DNA of 21,696 nt from a virus: the IMG/VR virus record IMGVR_UViG_3300049595_000074, positions 1 to 21,696 of that record; one strand, given 5' to 3'. How positions within the stretch are numbered: position 1 is the stretch's first letter; each line of letters starts with the position of its first letter. A program made the translations under genes and the position numbers. Of this stretch, positions 3,989-19,171 are shown one piece after another. The notes below the pieces were generated by a model. It was not told the origin of the DNA. It saw nothing but the letters and a program-made list of their open reading frames with translations, and made no database searches.

Positions 3989-3991
3989 CAA

Positions 3992-4002
3992 GCTTAGTAA
4001 GC
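3992..4002. repeat. Short palindrome next to the leftward promoter
   Basis: GCTTA-G-TAAGC is a perfect inverted repeat with a one-base centre, placed just upstream of the -35 region of the leftward promoter and before the rightward TerS-like gene. It could be an operator half-site pair, but five-base arms can occur by chance. Confidence 0.3.
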
Positions 4003-4027
4003 ATGACATCCAAAGGATAATGCAATT

Positions 4028-4336
4028 ATGGAAACATCAGAAGTTAAAGAAACTCAAAGTAACTGGAAAGTAGGAGACGGTACTGCTGGGCCGGGTAGAC
4101 CTAAAGGATCAGCTAATAAGTCCACTACTATCGTAAGAGAGGCTATAGCTAACCTACTAGAGCGCAATGCTCCTAACATGGATAGATGGCTTAATGAGGT
4201 GGCTGATAAAGATCCTCATAAGGCATTGGACATTATCCAGAAGCTCTCTGAGTACCATATCCCTAAGCTGGCTAGGACTGAGGTCACAGGACTTGATGGC
4301 GCTCCTCAGCAGCACGTGGTTACATGGCAGAAGTAA
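4028..4336 (+). CDS. Terminase small subunit-like DNA-binding protein
   Basis: A 102-residue protein directly ahead of the cupin and TerL genes. The segment GPGRPKGSANKSTT at 21-34 is an AT-hook-like, basic stretch as found in DUF5681-type proteins and in many small terminase subunits of this phage group. The rest (IVREAIANLLERNAPNM, then KALDIIQKLSEYHIPKL) is helical, as expected for an oligomeric DNA-recognition subunit. TerS binds the packaging site and hands the genome to TerL. Position and composition support this, but the identity is inferred because TerS proteins diverge quickly. The ATG follows AAAGGATAATGCAATT, a moderate ribosome binding site. Its TAA stop lies inside the first codons of the next gene. 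Confidence 0.65.
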   Translation: METSEVKETQSNWKVGDGTAGPGRPKGSANKSTTIVREAIANLLERNAPNMDRWLNEVADKDPHKALDIIQKLSEYHIPKLARTEVTGLDGAPQQHVVTWQK

Positions 4337-4337
4337 T
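4324..4337 (+). repeat. Left copy of a 14-nt repeat flanking the cupin gene
   Basis: ATGGCAGAAGTAAT here matches ATGGCAGAGGTAAT at 4784-4797 in 13 of 14 bases, exactly 460 bases apart. This copy holds both the TerS-like stop codon and the cupin start. Confidence 0.7.
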
Positions 4338-4779
4338 GCAATTTGACGATCTTGAGAACTTCAAGAACTGGTGGCTAGGCTCAAGACCTATTAACACACC
4401 AGACTTAAATGCCTTGACCTATGTTGCTGAGACGCATGGAGTTGTCTTATATAGGCAAGACTGCTATCAAGTTGAGATGTTTCTGGTAAAGCCTAACTCA
4501 GAGATAGATCCTCACATCCACCCTAATGTTGATTCTTTTGAGGTCTACATTGGCGGTGACATTAACTTTATGTGCAATGGTGAGTGGTTTGACCAGAATC
4601 TCATAGGCAATTCTATTCGCGTTTATCCTAATAGCTGGCATGGCGGTAAGTTTGGTGAACGTGGCGGATGTTTCTTATCGATACAAAAGTGGCTCAATAA
4701 TGTAGAGCCTAAGTTTGTTGGGGATGACTGGGTAGATACTAAGAATACTGGTTCTTACAAAGAAAACAGGGAGTCATAG
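4324..4779 (+). CDS. Cupin-like metal-binding protein inserted in the terminase module
   Basis: A 151-residue protein with a cupin-type metal site: DPHIHPNVDSFEVYIGGDI at 62-80 gives H64, H66 and E73, and VYPNSWHGG at 100-108 gives H106 of the second motif. Small cupins bind a divalent metal and act as sugar epimerases, dioxygenases, isomerases or simple binding proteins; none can be chosen here. It has no known role in packaging. The first ATG (4324) overlaps the TerS-like gene by 13 nt. A second in-frame ATG at 4336 would make a 1-nt TAATG junction like several others in this genome, so the start is uncertain by four codons. The first bases repeat at the start of TerL, suggesting insertion between TerS and TerL. 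Confidence 0.75.
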   Translation: MAEVMQFDDLENFKNWWLGSRPINTPDLNALTYVAETHGVVLYRQDCYQVEMFLVKPNSEIDPHIHPNVDSFEVYIGGDINFMCNGEWFDQNLIGNSIRVYPNSWHGGKFGERGGCFLSIQKWLNNVEPKFVGDDWVDTKNTGSYKENRES

Positions 4780-4783
4780 CCTG

Positions 4784-10432: not shown

Positions 10433-10729
10433 ATGGACTATAGACAACAGGTTGTACATGCGGACGGTGATGGCGGTATTATCATCGAGACTAAACAGGA
10501 TGTTACTGAGATACTTGAGAGTAACAAGCAACTTCTGGAGGCAGACAAGCAAAGAACCGGAAATCTTAATGAATTGCACCATATAGCTCGTATTCCTTTT
10601 ACGGTCATTGATGACTTGAATAAGAAGGGGATAATGAAGGGCTTTGCAATAGTAGATGATGCGGCTTTTGCGAGTTGGCTTAATAGTTCCGATAATGCAC
10701 AATGGAAAGTCTATAGGGGGACAGTATGA
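10433..10729 (+). CDS. Small conserved protein downstream of the capsid gene
   Basis: A 98-residue protein with a ribosome binding site (GAGGA) before ATG, just beyond the terminator. The central LHHIARIPFTVIDDLNKKG and a C-terminal NSSDNAQWKVYRG resemble, as I recall, a family of about 100 residues found after the capsid gene in many short-tailed phages (pattern: IASIP, then L-N-D-x-D-W). The role of that family is not known to me; head completion or decoration is a guess from position. The stop overlaps the next start by 4 nt (ATGA). Confidence 0.72.
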   Translation: MDYRQQVVHADGDGGIIIETKQDVTEILESNKQLLEADKQRTGNLNELHHIARIPFTVIDDLNKKGIMKGFAIVDDAAFASWLNSSDNAQWKVYRGTV

Positions 10730-11406
10730 TCGTAGGTGCTTGCGTACCAGCTAGGGATGAAGTTCACACATCGTTTGCTTTTGACTTTGCCAAGATGGTG
10801 GGCAGAGATTCAAGGCATCGATGCTCTAAAGAAGGTAATGGTCTAAAGCTCTATACGATGGCAGGAACGCTGATATTCGATCAGAGAGAGAAGCTAGTAG
10901 ATGCTGCTCTGGCTGAAGGATGCGATGCGATTCTGTTTATTGACTCTGATATGCGGTTTCCGTCTGACACTATTGATATTTTGTTAAGCCGTGATGTGCC
11001 GATTGTTGGAGTTAATGCAGTAACAAGACGTAAGCCGACACTACCGACTGCGTTGAATCTAAAGATCGAGAAGGATGAGAATGGAAAGATTACTCGTCAT
11101 GCTTGGCATAAGATAGATTCGATGGATAAAGAGGGCATAGAGCCTGTTACAGCGGTTGGTTTTGGTGTTGTGATGATCCGTAAGGAAGTCTTTGAGAAGG
11201 TTCCTAAGCCTTGGTTTGATGTGGGTTGGGGATCTAAGGGCATCATTGGCGAGGATGTGCATTTCTGCATCAAAGCCTTGGATGCTGGCATTCAGACTTA
11301 CGTAGATCATAGTTTATCTAAGCATATTGGTCACATTGGTACGTATGAGTATCGATGGGATGACGTAGAGGATGGCGCTATAGAGGCGCACAATAAAGGA
11401 AAATAG
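10726..11406 (+). CDS. Second GT-A glycosyltransferase, inside the structural operon
   Basis: A 226-residue protein beginning MIVGACVPARDEVHTSF, the N-terminal strand and loop of a GT-A fold. AILFIDSDMRFPSD at 68-81 contains the DxD metal and nucleotide-sugar motif (D73, D75). VGFGVVMIRKEVFEKV at 144-159 is the central strand and helix of the fold, and IGEDVHFCIKALDAG at 174-188 holds the acceptor-side E-D pair, followed by a His-rich strand around H195-H203. All catalytic landmarks are present and no membrane segment is seen. It lies between the capsid and adaptor genes and overlaps the previous gene by 4 nt, so it is made with virion proteins. O-glycosylation of a virion protein is possible but unproven. 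Confidence 0.82.
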   Translation: MIVGACVPARDEVHTSFAFDFAKMVGRDSRHRCSKEGNGLKLYTMAGTLIFDQREKLVDAALAEGCDAILFIDSDMRFPSDTIDILLSRDVPIVGVNAVTRRKPTLPTALNLKIEKDENGKITRHAWHKIDSMDKEGIEPVTAVGFGVVMIRKEVFEKVPKPWFDVGWGSKGIIGEDVHFCIKALDAGIQTYVDHSLSKHIGHIGTYEYRWDDVEDGAIEAHNKGK

Positions 11407-12580: not shown

Positions 12581-15118
12581 ATGGCGGATCGTTATTGGGT
12601 TCTAGGCACTGGGTCATGGAATAGCACCAATACTGTTAACTGGTCAGCGACTAGCGGAGGTCTTGGCGGCGCTTCTGTTCCTACGGCTGCTGATAACGTA
12701 TTCTTTGATGCTAACTCAAACGTAGCTACTGGTGCGTTTACGGTCACAATGGCAGACTCGCCAAGGGTTTGTAACGACATCACAATTAGCGGTCTTGATG
12801 GCACAATGACACTAGCTGGTACAAGCATTGGCTTGACTGTTAGCGGTTCTTTATCTTTCCCTGCGACTAATCTCACACGTACCTATACAGGCACTACGAC
12901 ATTTAACGCTACAACCACAGGCAAAACAATTACGACTAACGGAGTTGCTTTTGGTGGGGCAGTTACGTTTGACGGCGTTGGTGGCGCGTGGACGTTAGGC
13001 TCTGCGTTTAGCTTAGGCGGGTCTTTGCTTACTGTAATAAACGGCACGTTTGATACTTCAGTAAGTAATTATGCGGTTACTCTTGGTGCATTTAATTCGT
13101 CAAACTCAAGTACAAGAACAATTAATCTTAATGGATCAACTCTTACATTAAGCGGTAGTTGGACTATGACAAATAGCACTAACGCAACATTAAATGCTGG
13201 TACTTCACAAATAACCCTTAGCGCAATTGCTGTTACTTTTGCAGGTGGTGGTCTTACTTATAATAATATATCTTTTACAAGTCCAACTCCAACAACTACA
13301 ACAAAATCAATAACAGGCGCGAATACATTTAATAATGTTACATTTACAGCTCCTAGTTCTAGTGGTGGTTCAAATAACATCTCCATAGGAGCGAATCAGA
13401 CAATTAACGGAACATTGACAGTTCCGGGTACTAACGGTGATCGAAGACTATTTGTTCGTTCAGACACAATCGGTACATCACGCACATTAACTTGCGCGGC
13501 AGAATCTTTAACAGATGTTGATTTTAGGGATATTGTTGTTGCAGGTGCAGGAAGTCCATTCACAGGAACTAGACTTGGGGATTGCGGTGGCAATACCAAC
13601 ATTACCTTTGATGCTGGTGTTGATAAGTATTGGAACTTGGCGGCAGGTGGCAACTGGAATGCTACGGCTTGGGCATTAAGCTCAGGTGGTTCTGTTGCTG
13701 CTGCAAATTTTCCGTTAGCTCAAGATACGGTAATTATTGAAAATACTGGGTTAAATACGTCAGCTACCATTACTATAAATATAGCTTACAACATTGGTAC
13801 GCTTAACACATCAACCCGTACTAATGCAATGACGCTTGCATCGGGAACTATAAACCCAATATTTTACGGAAACTTTACTTACGGATCAGGCGTAACGCCT
13901 ACTGGGACTGGTACGTATACGTTTTCTAATAGGTCAACGAAGACGCTTAATTCTGGCGGTAAAACATTTCCTCAAATAATAAATATAAATGCTCCCAGTG
14001 GTGGTATACAACTGCTCACTAACAATTTAAGCGTTTCAACCTCTGCAACTTTAACTCAAGGAACCTTAAATCTAAACGGACTGTCTTTTACCGTACCATC
14101 TTTAGCAACAGCTACAGGCACTAAAAACATTACGTTTAACGGTGGGACTTTAACGATATCAAGTTCCGGCGCGACAGCATTTAATAACGCAGCGCCTACC
14201 GGATTTACCACAACCGCAGGAACTGGAACTGGCACAATTAGCATGACATCTGCTAGTGCCAAGACATTTGTTGGCGGTGGATCAGTCTACAACTGCACAT
14301 TGAATCAAGGTGGTGCGGGTACGCTGACAATTACTGGCGCAAATACGTTTAACGACATTACTGAAACAGTGCCGACAGCTAATCAGATCACATTCCCTGC
14401 TAGCACTACAACAACGGTAAATAACTTTACCTTGTCAGGGACTGCTGGCAACTTAGTTTCAATCCGTAGTTCAACACCGGGAACTCGATTTACGTTATCC
14501 AAGTCATCGGGGGCGGTATCAGTTAGTTATGTTGATATTCAAGACAGCAATGCTACTGGCGGTGCTACTTGGCAAGCTACCACAACTAACGGAAACGTAG
14601 ACTCCGGTAATAACCTTGGCTGGTCTTTTATTTCTGGTACTTACGTTGATGCTAGTGCTGCTGTAATTGCATTAGCAGATGTATCTTGTCTTGCCTCAAG
14701 GGTAAGGTTATTTCAAGGTAGCGTAAATGCTAGTGCAACGGTTACGGCTGTCGCAACTCGATTGTTAATGGGTCAGGGTAGTATTAACTGCGATGCAACG
14801 GTTACGGCAACAGGGATACGTATAAGGGTTGGTTCTGGCAGTGTTACTGGCTCTGCTGTAGTAACTGCTGCACCTAACTTTACTGCATCGGGTAATGCTG
14901 CTATTGCTGCTAATGCGGCTGTTTCTGCTTATGCGAATGCTACATTTGATAGTGCGCCTATAATTACAGGCAATGCAACAATCTCTGCTGATGGTCAAAT
15001 TATTGGCGAGGAGTGGGGTGATTCTTCTGTCGTAACGTCAACGTGGGATGATATTTCTCCTTCTGCTGATACATGGCAACCAGCATCACAATCTTCTAAT
15101 ACTTGGTTGAGGCAGTAA
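12581..15118 (+). CDS. Large Ser/Thr/Gly-rich beta-repeat fibre or adhesin
   Basis: An 845-residue protein very rich in Ser, Thr, Asn and Gly with almost no charged residues until the C-terminus. Two equivalent modules follow each other: RYWVLGTGSWN (from 4) with GANTFN at 246 and RSDTIGT at 293, and KYWNLAAGGNWN (from 349) with GANTFN at 586 and RSSTPGT at 629. Between these marks lie stacked short strands typical of a right-handed beta-helix. Residues about 713-763 hold a 20-residue repeat (GSVNASATVTA and relatives), and the last 34 residues carry Trp at 812, 822, 832 and 842. Such proteins form trimeric fibres or adhesins on virions. The many Ser/Thr residues could be glycosylated. Receptor binding is inferred; no catalytic motif is visible. 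Confidence 0.8.
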   Translation: MADRYWVLGTGSWNSTNTVNWSATSGGLGGASVPTAADNVFFDANSNVATGAFTVTMADSPRVCNDITISGLDGTMTLAGTSIGLTVSGSLSFPATNLTRTYTGTTTFNATTTGKTITTNGVAFGGAVTFDGVGGAWTLGSAFSLGGSLLTVINGTFDTSVSNYAVTLGAFNSSNSSTRTINLNGSTLTLSGSWTMTNSTNATLNAGTSQITLSAIAVTFAGGGLTYNNISFTSPTPTTTTKSITGANTFNNVTFTAPSSSGGSNNISIGANQTINGTLTVPGTNGDRRLFVRSDTIGTSRTLTCAAESLTDVDFRDIVVAGAGSPFTGTRLGDCGGNTNITFDAGVDKYWNLAAGGNWNATAWALSSGGSVAAANFPLAQDTVIIENTGLNTSATITINIAYNIGTLNTSTRTNAMTLASGTINPIFYGNFTYGSGVTPTGTGTYTFSNRSTKTLNSGGKTFPQIININAPSGGIQLLTNNLSVSTSATLTQGTLNLNGLSFTVPSLATATGTKNITFNGGTLTISSSGATAFNNAAPTGFTTTAGTGTGTISMTSASAKTFVGGGSVYNCTLNQGGAGTLTITGANTFNDITETVPTANQITFPASTTTTVNNFTLSGTAGNLVSIRSSTPGTRFTLSKSSGAVSVSYVDIQDSNATGGATWQATTTNGNVDSGNNLGWSFISGTYVDASAAVIALADVSCLASRVRLFQGSVNASATVTAVATRLLMGQGSINCDATVTATGIRIRVGSGSVTGSAVVTAAPNFTASGNAAIAANAAVSAYANATFDSAPIITGNATISADGQIIGEEWGDSSVVTSTWDDISPSADTWQPASQSSNTWLRQ
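15017..15109 (+). repeat. Ten-residue Trp repeat at the fibre C-terminus
   Basis: Four Trp residues at exact ten-residue steps: EEW, then GDSSVVTSTW, DDISPSADTW and QPASQSSNTW. The consensus ends in S-x-T-W. The DNA is diverged, so selection rather than recent duplication keeps the period. Confidence 0.8.
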
Positions 15119-15120
15119 TG
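15109..15120 (+). promoter_or_regulatory. RBS and start of the nozzle gene
   Basis: GAGG at 15109-15112 stands five bases before ATG at 15118, which overlaps the fibre stop as TAATG. This start is preferred to an in-frame TTG at 15103. Confidence 0.75.
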
Positions 15121-16536
15121 CAAAAGATTCTGTTTGGTGAGTGGTTGCCAGATCAACCCGGCGTAACAGGTGCAGTAACAGATGCAAAGAACTGTTACCC
15201 AGTAGCTAATGGATATGCCCCAGTTAAAGGCGAGGCTGATTACTCTGACGCTGCTGGTGCTGATCTAATCATTACCTTTGCTGGTAAGTTTGACAGCGTT
15301 AGTACATTGTTTGCAGCTAGCACAACCCAGATTTACAAGTTTGATAGCTCTGATGCTAGCTTGGATGCTGCTACGACTACGGGTTACACAGCGGTTGAGG
15401 GATGGGATGTAACTCAGTTTGGCGCAAAGATGATTCTGGCTAATGGTCAGGACAAGTTGCAAGCATGGACACTTAATTCGTCCACGAACTTTGCTGACCT
15501 AGCTGCTGCTGCTCCTACTGCCAAGTATGTAACCGTTGTGCGTGACTTTGTGGTTGCTGCTAACGACGGAACTGATACTAGCAAGGTCTACTGGTCAGAC
15601 ATAAATGACGAGACAGATTGGACACCGGGTTCTGCATCTCAGTCTGATACACAGATTCTTCCTGACGGTGGTGACATTACTGGTATAGCTGGTGGTGAGT
15701 ATGGTCTGATCTTCTTGGAACGTGCTATCTACCGGATGACCTATACAGGCTCACCGTTCTTCTTCCAGTTTGACGCTATCTCACGGTCTTTGGGCTGTAT
15801 TTCTAACGGATCTATTGCTCAGTACGGCAACCTAACGTATTTCCTTGCTGATGATGGCTTTTATGTCTGTGATGGTCAGTCAACGAAGAACATAGGTAGC
15901 GAAAAGGTAAACCGTTGGTTCTTTGACAATGCTATTCCGGGTGAGATATTTACTGGGATGAGTGCTACGGTTAATCCTGTTACCAAGTTAATAATATGGA
16001 AGTTTAATAATACATTTGGCGGTAATAGTATGCTGATGTATTCGATTGACCTTAACAAATGGTCATACGCAGATACTACAGCAACGTCAATTGCTTATGT
16101 ATTAACGCCTTCAGCTACGTTAGAGCAGGTAGATAACTACAACGCAAGCATTGATGCGCTTGATATTCCATTGGATTCACGGGTATTTGCTGGTGGACAA
16201 CTACTATTTGCTGGTGTTAGCGGTCAGAAGATCATTACTTTTTCAGGCCAACCTAAGACTGCGAACATATCAACGGGTGATATTGATGTAGGTAGGTCTA
16301 CGGTCATGCTGGCAAAGCCTATTGTGGACAATGGTAGCGGTTCTATCGCTGTTTCTAGCCGGGATAATCTTGCTGAACAAGTGGAATTTGGCTCAAATGT
16401 GTCTCCAGATGCAGAAAACCGTGTGAGCTTGAGGTCTAACGGTGAATATCATCGACTAAGACTGACTCCTACTGGATCTAGCTGGAAAACTGCTGTTGGC
16501 TTAGAGTTTGACGTTGTTAAACAGGGTAACCGATGA
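15118..16536 (+). CDS. Tail nozzle / head-closure protein (P22 gp10-like)
   Basis: With the start at 15118 the protein has 472 residues, the size I recall for P22 gp10. The N-terminus QKILFGEWLPDQPGV with DAKNCYPVANGYAPVKG is characteristic of packaged-DNA stabilisation or nozzle proteins, and the body is a run of four-stranded repeats as in a beta-propeller (VVAANDGTDTSKVYWSDIND, GGEYGLIFLERAIYRMTYTG, FLADDGFYVCDGQSTKNIG). Near the C-terminus VVKQG closes a strand that in relatives packs on the adaptor. The protein plugs the filled head and forms the tail tube tip with the adaptor. The ATG overlaps the fibre stop by one base; the 3' end overlaps the next gene by 4 nt. Confidence 0.85.
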   Translation: MQKILFGEWLPDQPGVTGAVTDAKNCYPVANGYAPVKGEADYSDAAGADLIITFAGKFDSVSTLFAASTTQIYKFDSSDASLDAATTTGYTAVEGWDVTQFGAKMILANGQDKLQAWTLNSSTNFADLAAAAPTAKYVTVVRDFVVAANDGTDTSKVYWSDINDETDWTPGSASQSDTQILPDGGDITGIAGGEYGLIFLERAIYRMTYTGSPFFFQFDAISRSLGCISNGSIAQYGNLTYFLADDGFYVCDGQSTKNIGSEKVNRWFFDNAIPGEIFTGMSATVNPVTKLIIWKFNNTFGGNSMLMYSIDLNKWSYADTTATSIAYVLTPSATLEQVDNYNASIDALDIPLDSRVFAGGQLLFAGVSGQKIITFSGQPKTANISTGDIDVGRSTVMLAKPIVDNGSGSIAVSSRDNLAEQVEFGSNVSPDAENRVSLRSNGEYHRLRLTPTGSSWKTAVGLEFDVVKQGNR

Positions 16537-17321
16537 CTCAGTTTCGTACATTACCGCCATTTGGAGGAGATCCTCGTCAGGTTTCTGAAGTTGTTCGTGG
16601 GGTTATGGACGGGAAGACCAATAATACGGGTCGGATTACGTTAGCCACAGGGAATGCCACGACAACTACCCTTTATGACGAGCGTATAGGCTTTGACAGC
16701 CTGATATTCTTGGTTCCAGTATCTAATGCTGCTGAGGCCGATTCAGCGCCTTACGGAGCGTTTCAGGACACCACAGACCAGACTGCTGCTAGCACAACCG
16801 CAGCCTATGCTGTTGCATTAAATACAACAGATTACTCTAACGGTATTTATGTTTCCAATACTTCGCGGATTAACGTCAGGAACTACGGGATATACAACAT
16901 TCAGTTTTCGTTGCAGTACAAGAATACGACTAACGATGGTCAAGATGTAGACATCTGGTTCAAGAAGAACAATACTAATGTTGCTGGATCAAATAGCCGA
17001 TTCCATATGCCAGCTAGAAAAAGCACTGGTGATCCATCTCATCTAATTGCTGCAATGAACTTCTTTTTAGAAATGAATGCTGGTGATTACGTTGAGGTAA
17101 TGTGGCGGACAACAGATACTGGCGTTTCTCTTGAGCAATATCCAACTAGCTCAAGCCCAGACAGACCATCAATTCCTAGTGCGATTATTACTGCTAGCTA
17201 TATCGCTCCTTCAGCAACATCTAATGTGTATGTTTCTAGCCAGCAACAAGGTCAAGCAACAATATCGCATTGGTCAAATGATACGGCAGACAAAACCTAT
17301 GGTTACATTGTGGTGGGCTAA
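16533..17321 (+). CDS. Virion protein with inserted jelly-roll-like domain
   Basis: A 262-residue protein. Residues 1-66 (FRTLPPFGGDPRQVSEVVRG, then GFDSLIFLVPVSNAA) and 228-262 (NVYVSSQQQGQATISHW, ending TYGYIVVG) together read like a complete small phage virion protein of about 110 residues that I recall following the nozzle gene. Between them, about 73-225, lies a separate beta-rich domain: GAFQDTTDQTAASTTAAYAV, then a GIYNIQFSLQY strand, DIWFKKNNTNV, and NAGDYVEVMWRTTDTGVSL. This matches C1q/TNF-like phage tail domains often used for receptor binding. It probably sits at the tail tip. The start ATG overlaps the nozzle stop (ATGA). Confidence 0.72.
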   Translation: MTQFRTLPPFGGDPRQVSEVVRGVMDGKTNNTGRITLATGNATTTTLYDERIGFDSLIFLVPVSNAAEADSAPYGAFQDTTDQTAASTTAAYAVALNTTDYSNGIYVSNTSRINVRNYGIYNIQFSLQYKNTTNDGQDVDIWFKKNNTNVAGSNSRFHMPARKSTGDPSHLIAAMNFFLEMNAGDYVEVMWRTTDTGVSLEQYPTSSSPDRPSIPSAIITASYIAPSATSNVYVSSQQQGQATISHWSNDTADKTYGYIVVG

Positions 17322-17719
17322 TGGAGTTTAGGTACATACCTGTAGACAAACTTAGGGACTGGTGGCCTAGTGTTCGCCCCGGTTTGGACAAAATCAAAAC
17401 ACGAAGCCCGGAGAATTGGATACCAGAAGATGTGTACACAGACTGCTTTAACCAAAAGGCAATGCTGTGGGTAATTTTAGAAAATAATCATTTTGTAGGC
17501 TTCTTTATCCTGCAACCTATGGGCGAAACAATGCACCTATGGGCTGCTTGGACGTTAGAAAATAATTATCAAATTGTTGAATCTGGATTAAAATACATAA
17601 AAGACATCTGCCGTCAAGGTAATGTCAAATATCTAACTTTCTCTAGTCATCGTCAAGGATGGCAACGTAGGGCGAAACAACTCGGTTTCCGTCCTAAACA
17701 ATGGATTTGCGAGGTGTAA
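17321..17719 (+). CDS. GNAT-like virion-cluster protein
   Basis: A 132-residue protein that begins MEFRYIPVDKLRDWWPSVR. MLWVILENNHFVGFFILQP at about 48-66 gives the central beta hairpin of a GNAT fold, HLWAAWTLEN follows as the next strand, and YLTFSSHRQGWQRRAKQLGF with FRPK near the C-terminus resembles the late acetyltransferase strand ('RLGF.P'). The acetyl-CoA binding Q/RxxGxG/A loop is not clear, so it may be inactive. Similar GNAT-like proteins stand just before ejection-protein genes in many short-tailed phages. The TAATG junction couples it to the gene before. The second half of the gene is AT-richer than its neighbours. Confidence 0.65.
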   Translation: MEFRYIPVDKLRDWWPSVRPGLDKIKTRSPENWIPEDVYTDCFNQKAMLWVILENNHFVGFFILQPMGETMHLWAAWTLENNYQIVESGLKYIKDICRQGNVKYLTFSSHRQGWQRRAKQLGFRPKQWICEV

Positions 17720-17720
17720 T

Positions 17721-18455
17721 ATGGGTAGCCGAGGCGGGAATCAAACAAGCACAACGACTACGAGCATTGATCCAGACATCAAGCCGTATGTTACCTATGG
17801 ACTAGAAGAAGGCAAGCGCCTTTATGAGTCTGGTACGCCTACATTCTTCCCCGGTCAGACCTATGTTTCTCCATCTCAGGCTACTCAATCAGCCCTGCAA
17901 ATGGCTCAGGAACGGGCTATGGCGGGTTCTCCGCTGGTTCGTTCAGCACAGCAAGAGCAATTAGCTACGATTCAAGGACGAGGCGTTAATCCATTCCTAG
18001 AGGGTGCTTTGGCTGGCGTTAATCGTCAGGCTCGTGAGCAATTTACGGAAGGTGTCCAAGGTCTTCAGTCTAAGGCTTCCTCGATGGGTCGTTATGGCTC
18101 TGCTGCTCAAGCCGAACAAGAAGCTCGCGCTCAAGACGTATTTGCTCGTGCCTTGGCTGAACAGGGTGGTCAATTGGCTTACGGATCGGCTGAAGCTGAA
18201 CGTGCTAGACAGATGGCTGCTACTCAGGCTGCTCCTCAGATGGCTGCTGCTGACTATTCTGATATTCAAAGACTTCTATCAACAGGTCAGGCACAAGAGC
18301 AATATTCCTCAGCCGAACTGCAAGACGCAATTAACCGCTTTAACTTTGAACAGAACTTGCCACAAGCAAAACTTAGTCAATTCGCTAACTTGTTTAGCAG
18401 TGTGCCTCAAGGTGGTCAGACTGTTACACAAGCTACGCCATCGGGAGGTAAATAA
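17721..18455 (+). CDS. Ejection / internal virion protein, Ala/Gln-rich
   Basis: A 244-residue protein. The N-terminus MGSRGGNQTSTTTTSIDPD is Ser/Thr-rich and flexible, followed by IKPYVTYGLEEGKRLYESG and FFPGQTYVSPS, a motif set I recall from internal virion proteins of many uncultured podophages. From about residue 45 to 225 the chain is Ala/Gln/Glu-rich and nearly all helical. P22 and T7 eject such Ala-rich internal proteins with the genome to build a channel through the cell envelope. No signal peptide or catalytic site is seen. The gene ends in the TAATG overlap with the next. The function is assigned by position, composition and recall. Confidence 0.7.
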   Translation: MGSRGGNQTSTTTTSIDPDIKPYVTYGLEEGKRLYESGTPTFFPGQTYVSPSQATQSALQMAQERAMAGSPLVRSAQQEQLATIQGRGVNPFLEGALAGVNRQAREQFTEGVQGLQSKASSMGRYGSAAQAEQEARAQDVFARALAEQGGQLAYGSAEAERARQMAATQAAPQMAAADYSDIQRLLSTGQAQEQYSSAELQDAINRFNFEQNLPQAKLSQFANLFSSVPQGGQTVTQATPSGGK

Positions 18456-19171
18456 TGGGTGCTGCTGCTACTCCAATGTTGATTGGTTCCGCTATCGGTG
18501 GATTAACTAATCGTGATAACCCATTGCAAGGTGCATTGCTTGGTGGCGCTTTAGGTGGCGCTGGTGGTGCATTTATGGGGCAGGGTGGTCTTTCTAATAT
18601 GTTCTCTTTTGCTGATGATGCTGCTACTGGTGTTTTGCCTAGCGCATTGTCTGGCTCTACTACTGCTGTAACTAATCCTGCATTGGTAACATCTGCGTTA
18701 CCTACATCTGCAACAAACGTAGGATTCCAAACCGCAGCACAGCAAGCAGCAGCTCAAATGCCGACTAATATTGCTAATGAAGCCGCTAAAGGTGGTTTAT
18801 TTGCTCCTCCTGCTGGTGGTTTTCAGTCATTAACGGCTGGAATGCCACAACCTTTAACATTTAACCAAGCTACTGCTGCTGGTATGCAAAGACCACTTTC
18901 TTTAGGTATGCCCGGTGTAGAAGCATCATCTTTGTATGAACCTACTTTTATGGATAGAGTTGGTTCTGTTGGTCAATATGCCCAACAAAATCCTGTGTTG
19001 ACAGGTATGGCATTGCAATCGGCACAGCAAATGATGCAGCGTCCTGAAATGCCACCGTCTCCTGTTGCTCAAATTGATCGTAGTCAGATTCAACCAATGG
19101 ATTACATGAGTCTGCTAAATCCACAGCAAAGCACAGTCCTTAGACCACAACCAATTTCCCTATTAGGGTGA
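18455..19171 (+). CDS. Ejection protein with glycine-zipper segment
   Basis: A 238-residue protein. Near the N-terminus, residues about 9-43, it has LIGSAIGGL and then ALLGGALGGAGGAFMG, a glycine-zipper run able to insert in membranes. The remainder is Ala/Gln/Met/Pro-rich with low charge (QTAAQQAAAQMPTNIAN, QMMQRPEMPPSPVAQ). It sits between two other ejection-type proteins and is coupled to the previous gene by TAATG. A membrane-inserting subunit of the DNA-ejection conduit is a reasonable inference; nothing catalytic is visible. Confidence 0.68.
   Translation: MGAAATPMLIGSAIGGLTNRDNPLQGALLGGALGGAGGAFMGQGGLSNMFSFADDAATGVLPSALSGSTTAVTNPALVTSALPTSATNVGFQTAAQQAAAQMPTNIANEAAKGGLFAPPAGGFQSLTAGMPQPLTFNQATAAGMQRPLSLGMPGVEASSLYEPTFMDRVGSVGQYAQQNPVLTGMALQSAQQMMQRPEMPPSPVAQIDRSQIQPMDYMSLLNPQQSTVLRPQPISLLG

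Follow-up and report, generated by a model that had tools for sequence, protein, structure and literature searches.

A C1q-fold domain nested in a small protein encoded beside a phage tail nozzle homologue

In marine phages, C1q genes are among the variable genes of metaviromic islands; the C1q domain recruits fewer reads than the N-terminal end, and the products have been proposed as receptor-binding proteins (Mizuno et al. 2014; PMC3909814, available part of the text). In cryoconite phages, near-identical core genomes carry putative receptor-binding C1q variants that are 54-69% alike, and this is attributed to recombination (Bellas et al. 2020; PMC7468147, available part). The window considered here is the whole of a 21,696-base viral record (IMG/VR record IMGVR_UViG_3300049595_000074). 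The gene under study encodes a 262-amino-acid (aa) protein directly after the gene of a tail nozzle homologue, a position referred to below as nozzle+1. Its open reading frame (ORF), at 16533-17321, is confirmed to encode a whole protein of ~104 aa that is interrupted at residues ~72-227 by a C1q-fold domain. The insertion is real, and it belongs to a wider, repeatedly exchanged module.

A short protein family split by a C1q-fold domain

The two flanks of the insert, here called the frame, match a family of short nozzle+1 proteins, and the ending ...YxxxG also fits that family. The isolate phage Venkman (MT375522) encodes one such protein, gp48 (104 aa), right after a phrog_3287 nozzle homologue, in the same order as in the window. 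The match of gp48 to the window protein is at 55% over residues 3-71 (E 3e-21), and a separate piece aligns the two C-termini. When window residues 1-69 and 229-262 were joined into a single query of 103 aa, short relatives matched its full or near-full length in one segment at 59-69% identity; such matches include loci L166, L167, L175-L182, L185, L197-L199, L229 and L234. The initial annotation had read the two ends as one complete short family, which implies short homologues in which residues 1-66 are joined to 228-262, and gp48 and the joined-flank relatives are such homologues. Its insertion edges, at residues 67-73 and 228, were right to a few residues: the alignment gives 71/72 and 227/228, and the C1q strands occupy 74-225 in the model. 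Alignment and AlphaFold models also agree with the single insertion point in a loop that it had proposed.

At least 598 viral-contig stretches encode whole-protein relatives. The locus set was built from the best 80 loci of each scan and is biased to that extent. Its 398 loci gave 216 distinct frame ORFs, of which 201 have a stop inside the locus and 15 run past the locus end. The closed ORFs are strictly bimodal: 86 are short (87-111 aa), 115 are long (260-272 aa), and none of the 201 falls at 112-259 aa. The C1q-like insert and the C-terminal piece are present in all 115 long forms; at the lower end of the short range, the 87-aa ORF of L140 is called without the usual N-terminus. No non-C1q insert was found at the same site among the 216 distinct frame ORFs, though rarer inserts are possible beyond these best-scoring loci. 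An upstream ORF of more than 250 aa ends at the gene start in 188 of 200 distinct frame ORFs and is missing in 12, a count made by size and position, with nozzle homology not scored one by one. The graft that had been proposed is an insertion, as claimed, and is not a one-off, being widespread and present in several divergent insert versions.

Three deposited records deserve comment. In MW202481.1, a homologous frame-plus-C1q ORF (3989-4780) lies in an unannotated gap, so annotation has overlooked the gene. In MW202710, the start given in the annotation falls within the frame. The record of Limnohabitans phage DC33 (PQ492659.1) has a taxonomy line of Inoviridae, which its length of 39,048 bp suggests is likely wrong.

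The insert is a C1q/TNF fold in the predicted structure, as the initial annotation had supposed. The window protein was modelled as a monomer by AlphaFold from a 34-row alignment of the window and viral-contig sequences. The mean predicted local distance difference test score (pLDDT) is 84, with ~95 in the insert core and block means of 86-97 over residues 71-220. The closest structure is Bacillus BxpB (8d02; VIA Z 17.1, 134 residues aligned, root-mean-square deviation 2.0), followed by the Caprin-2 C1q domain (Z 16.5) and the phage tail chains 9eul (Z 16.2), 9k09_A (Z 15.6) and 8ke9 (Z 14.9). The closest predicted viral structure is a 267-aa protein that is 60% identical across nearly the whole length. 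A Pfam search of the window protein gave no match, with C1q and TNF models not above the cut-off, and the relative P0004 reached only 12.5 bits with the Pfam TNF model (cut-off 23); the insert is therefore classed by fold and not as a Pfam member.

The frame is predicted to form a domain of its own. In the short form L166 (AlphaFold, 47 alignment rows, pLDDT 83) and the window model, helix 14-25 and strands 32-36, 44-48 and 57-62 coincide. The window model then has a short helix at 65-71, the C1q strands, and strands equivalent to short-form 75-80, 83-87 and 97-103, so that short-form models keep the order of secondary structure seen in the outer parts of the window protein. The domain (short-form residues 31-104) resembles tailspike C-terminal domains: 9k4a (Z 8.0, 30% identity), 7w1c (7.2), 7eea (6.9) and Sf6 (6.0). 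R-pyocin fibres (Z 5.4) and H-type lectins (Z ~5) stand lower. Searches of PHROGs and Pfam with the frame family gave nothing reliable, and PDB sequence searches with the window protein and short-form profiles gave no solid match, while the nozzle query alone gave solid ones. A weak match of the window protein to phrog_16410 (E 0.0093) was not used.

Probable exchange and on/off switching of the C1q domain

Insert and frame were compared in 116 long forms, that of the window among them, which gives 6670 pairs. A frame identity above 85% goes with an insert identity below 60% in 261/1557 pairs, and for long forms with nozzles at least 90% identical the insert is below 60% in 50 of 220 pairs. 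Between the window and L183, the nozzle is 96% identical, residues 1-33 are 100%, the two halves of the frame beta-domain are 95% and 89%, and the insert is 51%. Their DNA identity is 0.59 within the fitted block and 0.96 outside it; in 75-base blocks, the nozzle gene and first codons are mostly at 0.84-0.99, the insert at 0.48-0.63 and the last codons at 0.97. In a two-breakpoint fit to these 50 nozzle-matched pairs, 49 have their left edge at residues 62-79 (the other lies at 28) and all 50 have their right edge at residues 216-251, with a median DNA identity of 0.57 inside and 0.87 outside. A variable C1q domain with a conserved remainder in near-identical backgrounds, the pattern by which phage C1q receptor-binding proteins are recognized, is thus present. 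Nozzle and downstream protein can also be nearly unchanged with a milder difference between them, as in L033 (99% for both, 85% for the nozzle+1 protein).

Such pairs could also arise if the insert had one origin and diverged by accelerated substitution under selection. Frame and insert identities do correlate (r 0.73 over the 6670 pairs), and a single insert clade stands in an approximately unbiased (AU) test (p 0.084). Against this, DNA identity falls and recovers abruptly near the domain edges. The window and L016 have the reverse pattern, in which insert blocks are at ~0.80-0.89 and most flanking blocks are lower. Moreover, the window insert is 58% identical to the C1q domain of L392, a protein with an unrelated anchor, and no more than 47% identical to the L193 insert, although L193 and the window have nozzles at 90% identity. 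Divergence in place is accordingly considered improbable. Joining of different phages by assemblers at the conserved frame ends would produce mosaics as well, and nearly all loci are metagenome contigs. However, long forms occur in the deposited circular records MW202481, MW202710 and MW202544, and the short form occurs in the isolate Venkman. Exact recurrence across separate metagenomes also speaks against chimeras formed by chance: four contigs of different metagenomes carry one and the same L192-type protein, and two contigs other than the window encode the window protein. An assembly artefact as the general explanation is very improbable, and recombination remains the preferred source of the exchanged domains.

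The presence of the domain changes as well. The nozzle tree was a quick tree with SH-aLRT support alone, built from 189 rows (188 upstream ORFs and the window) that were reduced to 114 by removal of near-copies (59 long, 55 short). On it, the long/short label changes at least 21 times, with 15 changes forced by branches with support of at least 95; label shuffles gave 38. The closest long/short pair, L294 (268 aa) and L261 (106 aa), has nozzles 97% identical and residues 1-33 at 92%, with beta-halves at 53% and 38%. There are 16 long/short pairs with nozzles at least 85% identical, in about five independent groups. In all 16, residues 1-33 are kept at 84-97% and the beta-halves are at 42-69% and 31-55%, so the state changes by replacement of the whole segment that follows ~residue 33. 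For these close pairs, a clean indel that adds or removes just the C1q domain was rejected. The idea of a simple domain graft thus stands for the nested insert and fails for the differences between close relatives, in which the surrounding beta-domain is replaced too. Residues 1-33 look like a fixed anchor and the remainder like a displayed part. A fixed anchor with a displayed part is the usual plan of phage receptor-binding proteins.

C1q domains also occur outside the frame family. The analysis gave 81 such ORFs: 34 of a type labelled LRLYF here, 40 of a "189-type" and 7 others. LRLYF-type proteins (~196-235 aa) have an N-terminus of ~40-55 aa with an LRLYF-like motif and a C-terminal C1q domain. 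They share the nozzle+1 position and a related C1q domain with the frame proteins, but their C1q domain is C-terminal and the frame beta-domain is absent. Directly upstream, 32 of the 34 have an ORF with a nozzle-like profile match (E 3e-10 to 5e-20), the other two having no qualifying upstream ORF. The corresponding counts are 0/40 for the 189-type (39 without a qualifying ORF, one with another ORF) and 2/7 for the others. In the deposited record MW202867, a 390-aa "cerebellin-1 domain" gene directly follows a "stabilization protein" gene. Acinetobacter phage phiAC-1 has a C1q-like stretch, and the nozzle-adjacent order was not seen in its annotation. The identity between LRLYF-type C1q domains and frame inserts reaches 62%. 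A C1q tree of 82 rows has three label changes, two of them forced by starred branches, and is compatible with several exchanges.

A candidate receptor-binding protein and its neighbours

The explanation that is probably correct is that the gene belongs to a short-tailed phage and encodes a modular receptor-binding protein of the tail tip, whose C1q module is exchanged by recombination. In this arrangement, residues 1-33, with their short helix, would probably dock the protein on the tail. Residues 34-70 and 228-262 would form a small beta-domain of the tailspike C-terminal type, from which a complete C1q-fold domain would emerge as a loop, after the helix at 65-71 and before the strand at 233-238. 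The tail position is indirectly supported by the 4-bp overlap with the nozzle gene and by the tailspike-like frame domain. In known proteins, trimers are the usual state of both the C1q fold and tailspike-type beta-domains, and the likely assembly is therefore a trimer of C1q domains displayed on a trimer of beta-domains. Diversification would follow two routes. In the first, recombination would swap the C1q domain at breakpoints near its borders; in the second, everything after ~residue 33 would be replaced, with or without a C1q domain. The C1q domain is absent or very different in related viruses, which suggests an exchangeable host-recognition part that may affect host range.

The coordinates of the gene, its parts and its neighbours are collected in Table 1. 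The nozzle homologue matches phrog_3287 at E 1.9e-63 and PDB 8zkk (nozzle gp16) at E 2.4e-8. The phrog_610 protein is the conserved downstream flank in close relatives.

Table 1. Positions in the window of the nozzle+1 gene, its parts and neighbouring genes
Feature	Position	Strand	Basis
262-aa nozzle+1 protein: short-family frame with nested C1q-like domain	16533..17321	+	ORF list, alignments
Residues 1-33: N-terminal part, helix 14-25; putative virion anchor	16533..16631	+	model, identity comparisons
Residues 34-70: frame beta-domain, first half, tailspike-C-terminal-like	16632..16742	+	models, structure comparison
Residues 72-227: inserted C1q/TNF-fold domain; the low-identity block of swap pairs	16746..17213	+	alignment, model
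Residues 228-262: frame beta-domain, second half, C-terminal end ...YGYIVVG	17214..17318	+	alignment, models
Tail nozzle homologue: phrog_3287; PDB 8zkk/8zkm nozzle gp16	15103..16536	+	PHROG and PDB searches
132-aa protein, phrog_610 (unknown function), weak GNAT-like match	17321..17719	+	PHROG search
845-aa ORF upstream of nozzle, variable	12581..15118	+	PHROG search, comparison with relatives

The C1q domain could instead be a structural decoration of the head, neck or tail, stabilizing or nonspecifically sticky, and not a receptor binder. C1q folds do serve in structures, and several top matches of the insert are spore exosporium proteins (BxpB, ExsFA, BclA). The phage also has another adhesin candidate. 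The 845-aa ORF, for which a PHROG search gave no match, sits between a gp80-like gene and the nozzle gene; it shares 72% identity over 476 aa with its counterpart in L033 (nozzles 99% identical) and no more than 48% over 141 aa with that of L192. It is a possible second adhesin. Nevertheless, inserts that are ~50% alike in near-identical phages fit recognition modules and not a structural plug, and two surveys count phage C1q genes among their variable candidates for host recognition (PMC3909814, PMC7468147). Decoration is therefore unlikely, though less so than the two alternatives above, and receptor binding is preferred.

Several observations weigh against a receptor-binding module that is captured and exchanged in this way. 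In cyanophage A-1(L), the C1q-like CBD alone failed to bind host cells, and the stem-CBD bound (PMC10966104, available part). The 50 swap pairs have members in common and do not count as 50 separate events. Because metagenome contigs make up most of the loci, some mosaics could be chimeras of assembly. The AU test leaves a single insert clade standing, and several independent captures of the insert are thus not claimed. Foldseek with the short form gave no match at E<=1e-3 (best 2.5e-3), and the tailspike-type assignment of the frame domain is consequently provisional; Z 5-8 for a small beta-sandwich may reflect just a common arrangement.

A broader proposal is tentative and somewhat more doubtful than not. 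The nozzle+1 gene may be the receptor-binding "socket" of a broad aquatic podophage group, in which a fixed N-terminal anchor carries a lectin-like beta-domain alone, a beta-domain with a nested C1q domain, or a C1q domain alone. Near-identical tail machines would repeatedly gain, lose and exchange C1q domains, and host recognition would evolve as a plug-in apart from the rest of the virion. If true, a probable recognition protein can be named for an abundant, mostly uncultured aquatic podophage group, and host-recognition variability can be read from metagenomes at residues ~72-227 of the nozzle+1 gene. The protein would also offer a natural insertion loop that takes a ~155-residue domain and leaves the frame undisturbed. 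Short forms, long forms and several insert types in near-identical backgrounds would be a natural series for testing module exchange against host changes.

Other genes of the window were noted. The product of 12033-12419 matches PF23140 "Podophage GP4 fiber I protein gp80" (E 1.4e-49) and PDB 8jou, and judging from its sequence it is a relative of a solved podophage virion protein. A 238-aa ORF (18455-19171) is 41-59% identical in several relatives in which the nozzle and downstream neighbour are near or above 90%. Near the structural genes, 645-2360 and 10726-11406 read by eye as putative hexapeptide-repeat acetyltransferase, methyltransferase and glycosyltransferase-like proteins. The window virus may be of freshwater origin, given its deposited spring and lake-type relatives.

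Comparison with known phage recognition proteins

In the open-access literature searched, no earlier description was found of the nesting, of switching between short and long forms on one frame, or of the nozzle+1 rule. The marine C1q proteins of Mizuno et al. resemble the proteins described here in having a variable C1q-like domain and a conserved N-terminal end near tail genes. Nesting in a beta-domain, presence/absence switching and the nozzle+1 slot are seen here and not in the available part of that account, in which the words "insertion" and "inserted" are absent (PMC3909814). In the cryoconite phages of Bellas et al., as far as the available text goes, it is the whole gene that varies, whereas here the variable unit is a domain cassette within a ~104-aa frame (PMC7468147).

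The CBD of the A-1(L) short tail fibre (8KE9) shares the C1q-like fold of the insert (Z 14.9). That CBD lies at the distal end of a long trimeric fibre in a phage with a contractile tail (PMC10966104, available part), while the insert here is nested in a protein of what is probably a short-tailed phage. The frame domain provisionally resembles the C-terminal beta-domains of tailspikes (K64-1 S2-4, 9k4a; K1 lyase, 7w1c; Pam1, 7eea; Sf6, 2vbk) at Z 6-8. Unlike the tailspikes, it has no beta-helix after its short N-terminal part, and in its long form a C1q domain loops out of it. This kind of module, and variable receptor-binding candidates with C1q domains in phages, are thus already known; the nested architecture and the repeated on/off switching look new.
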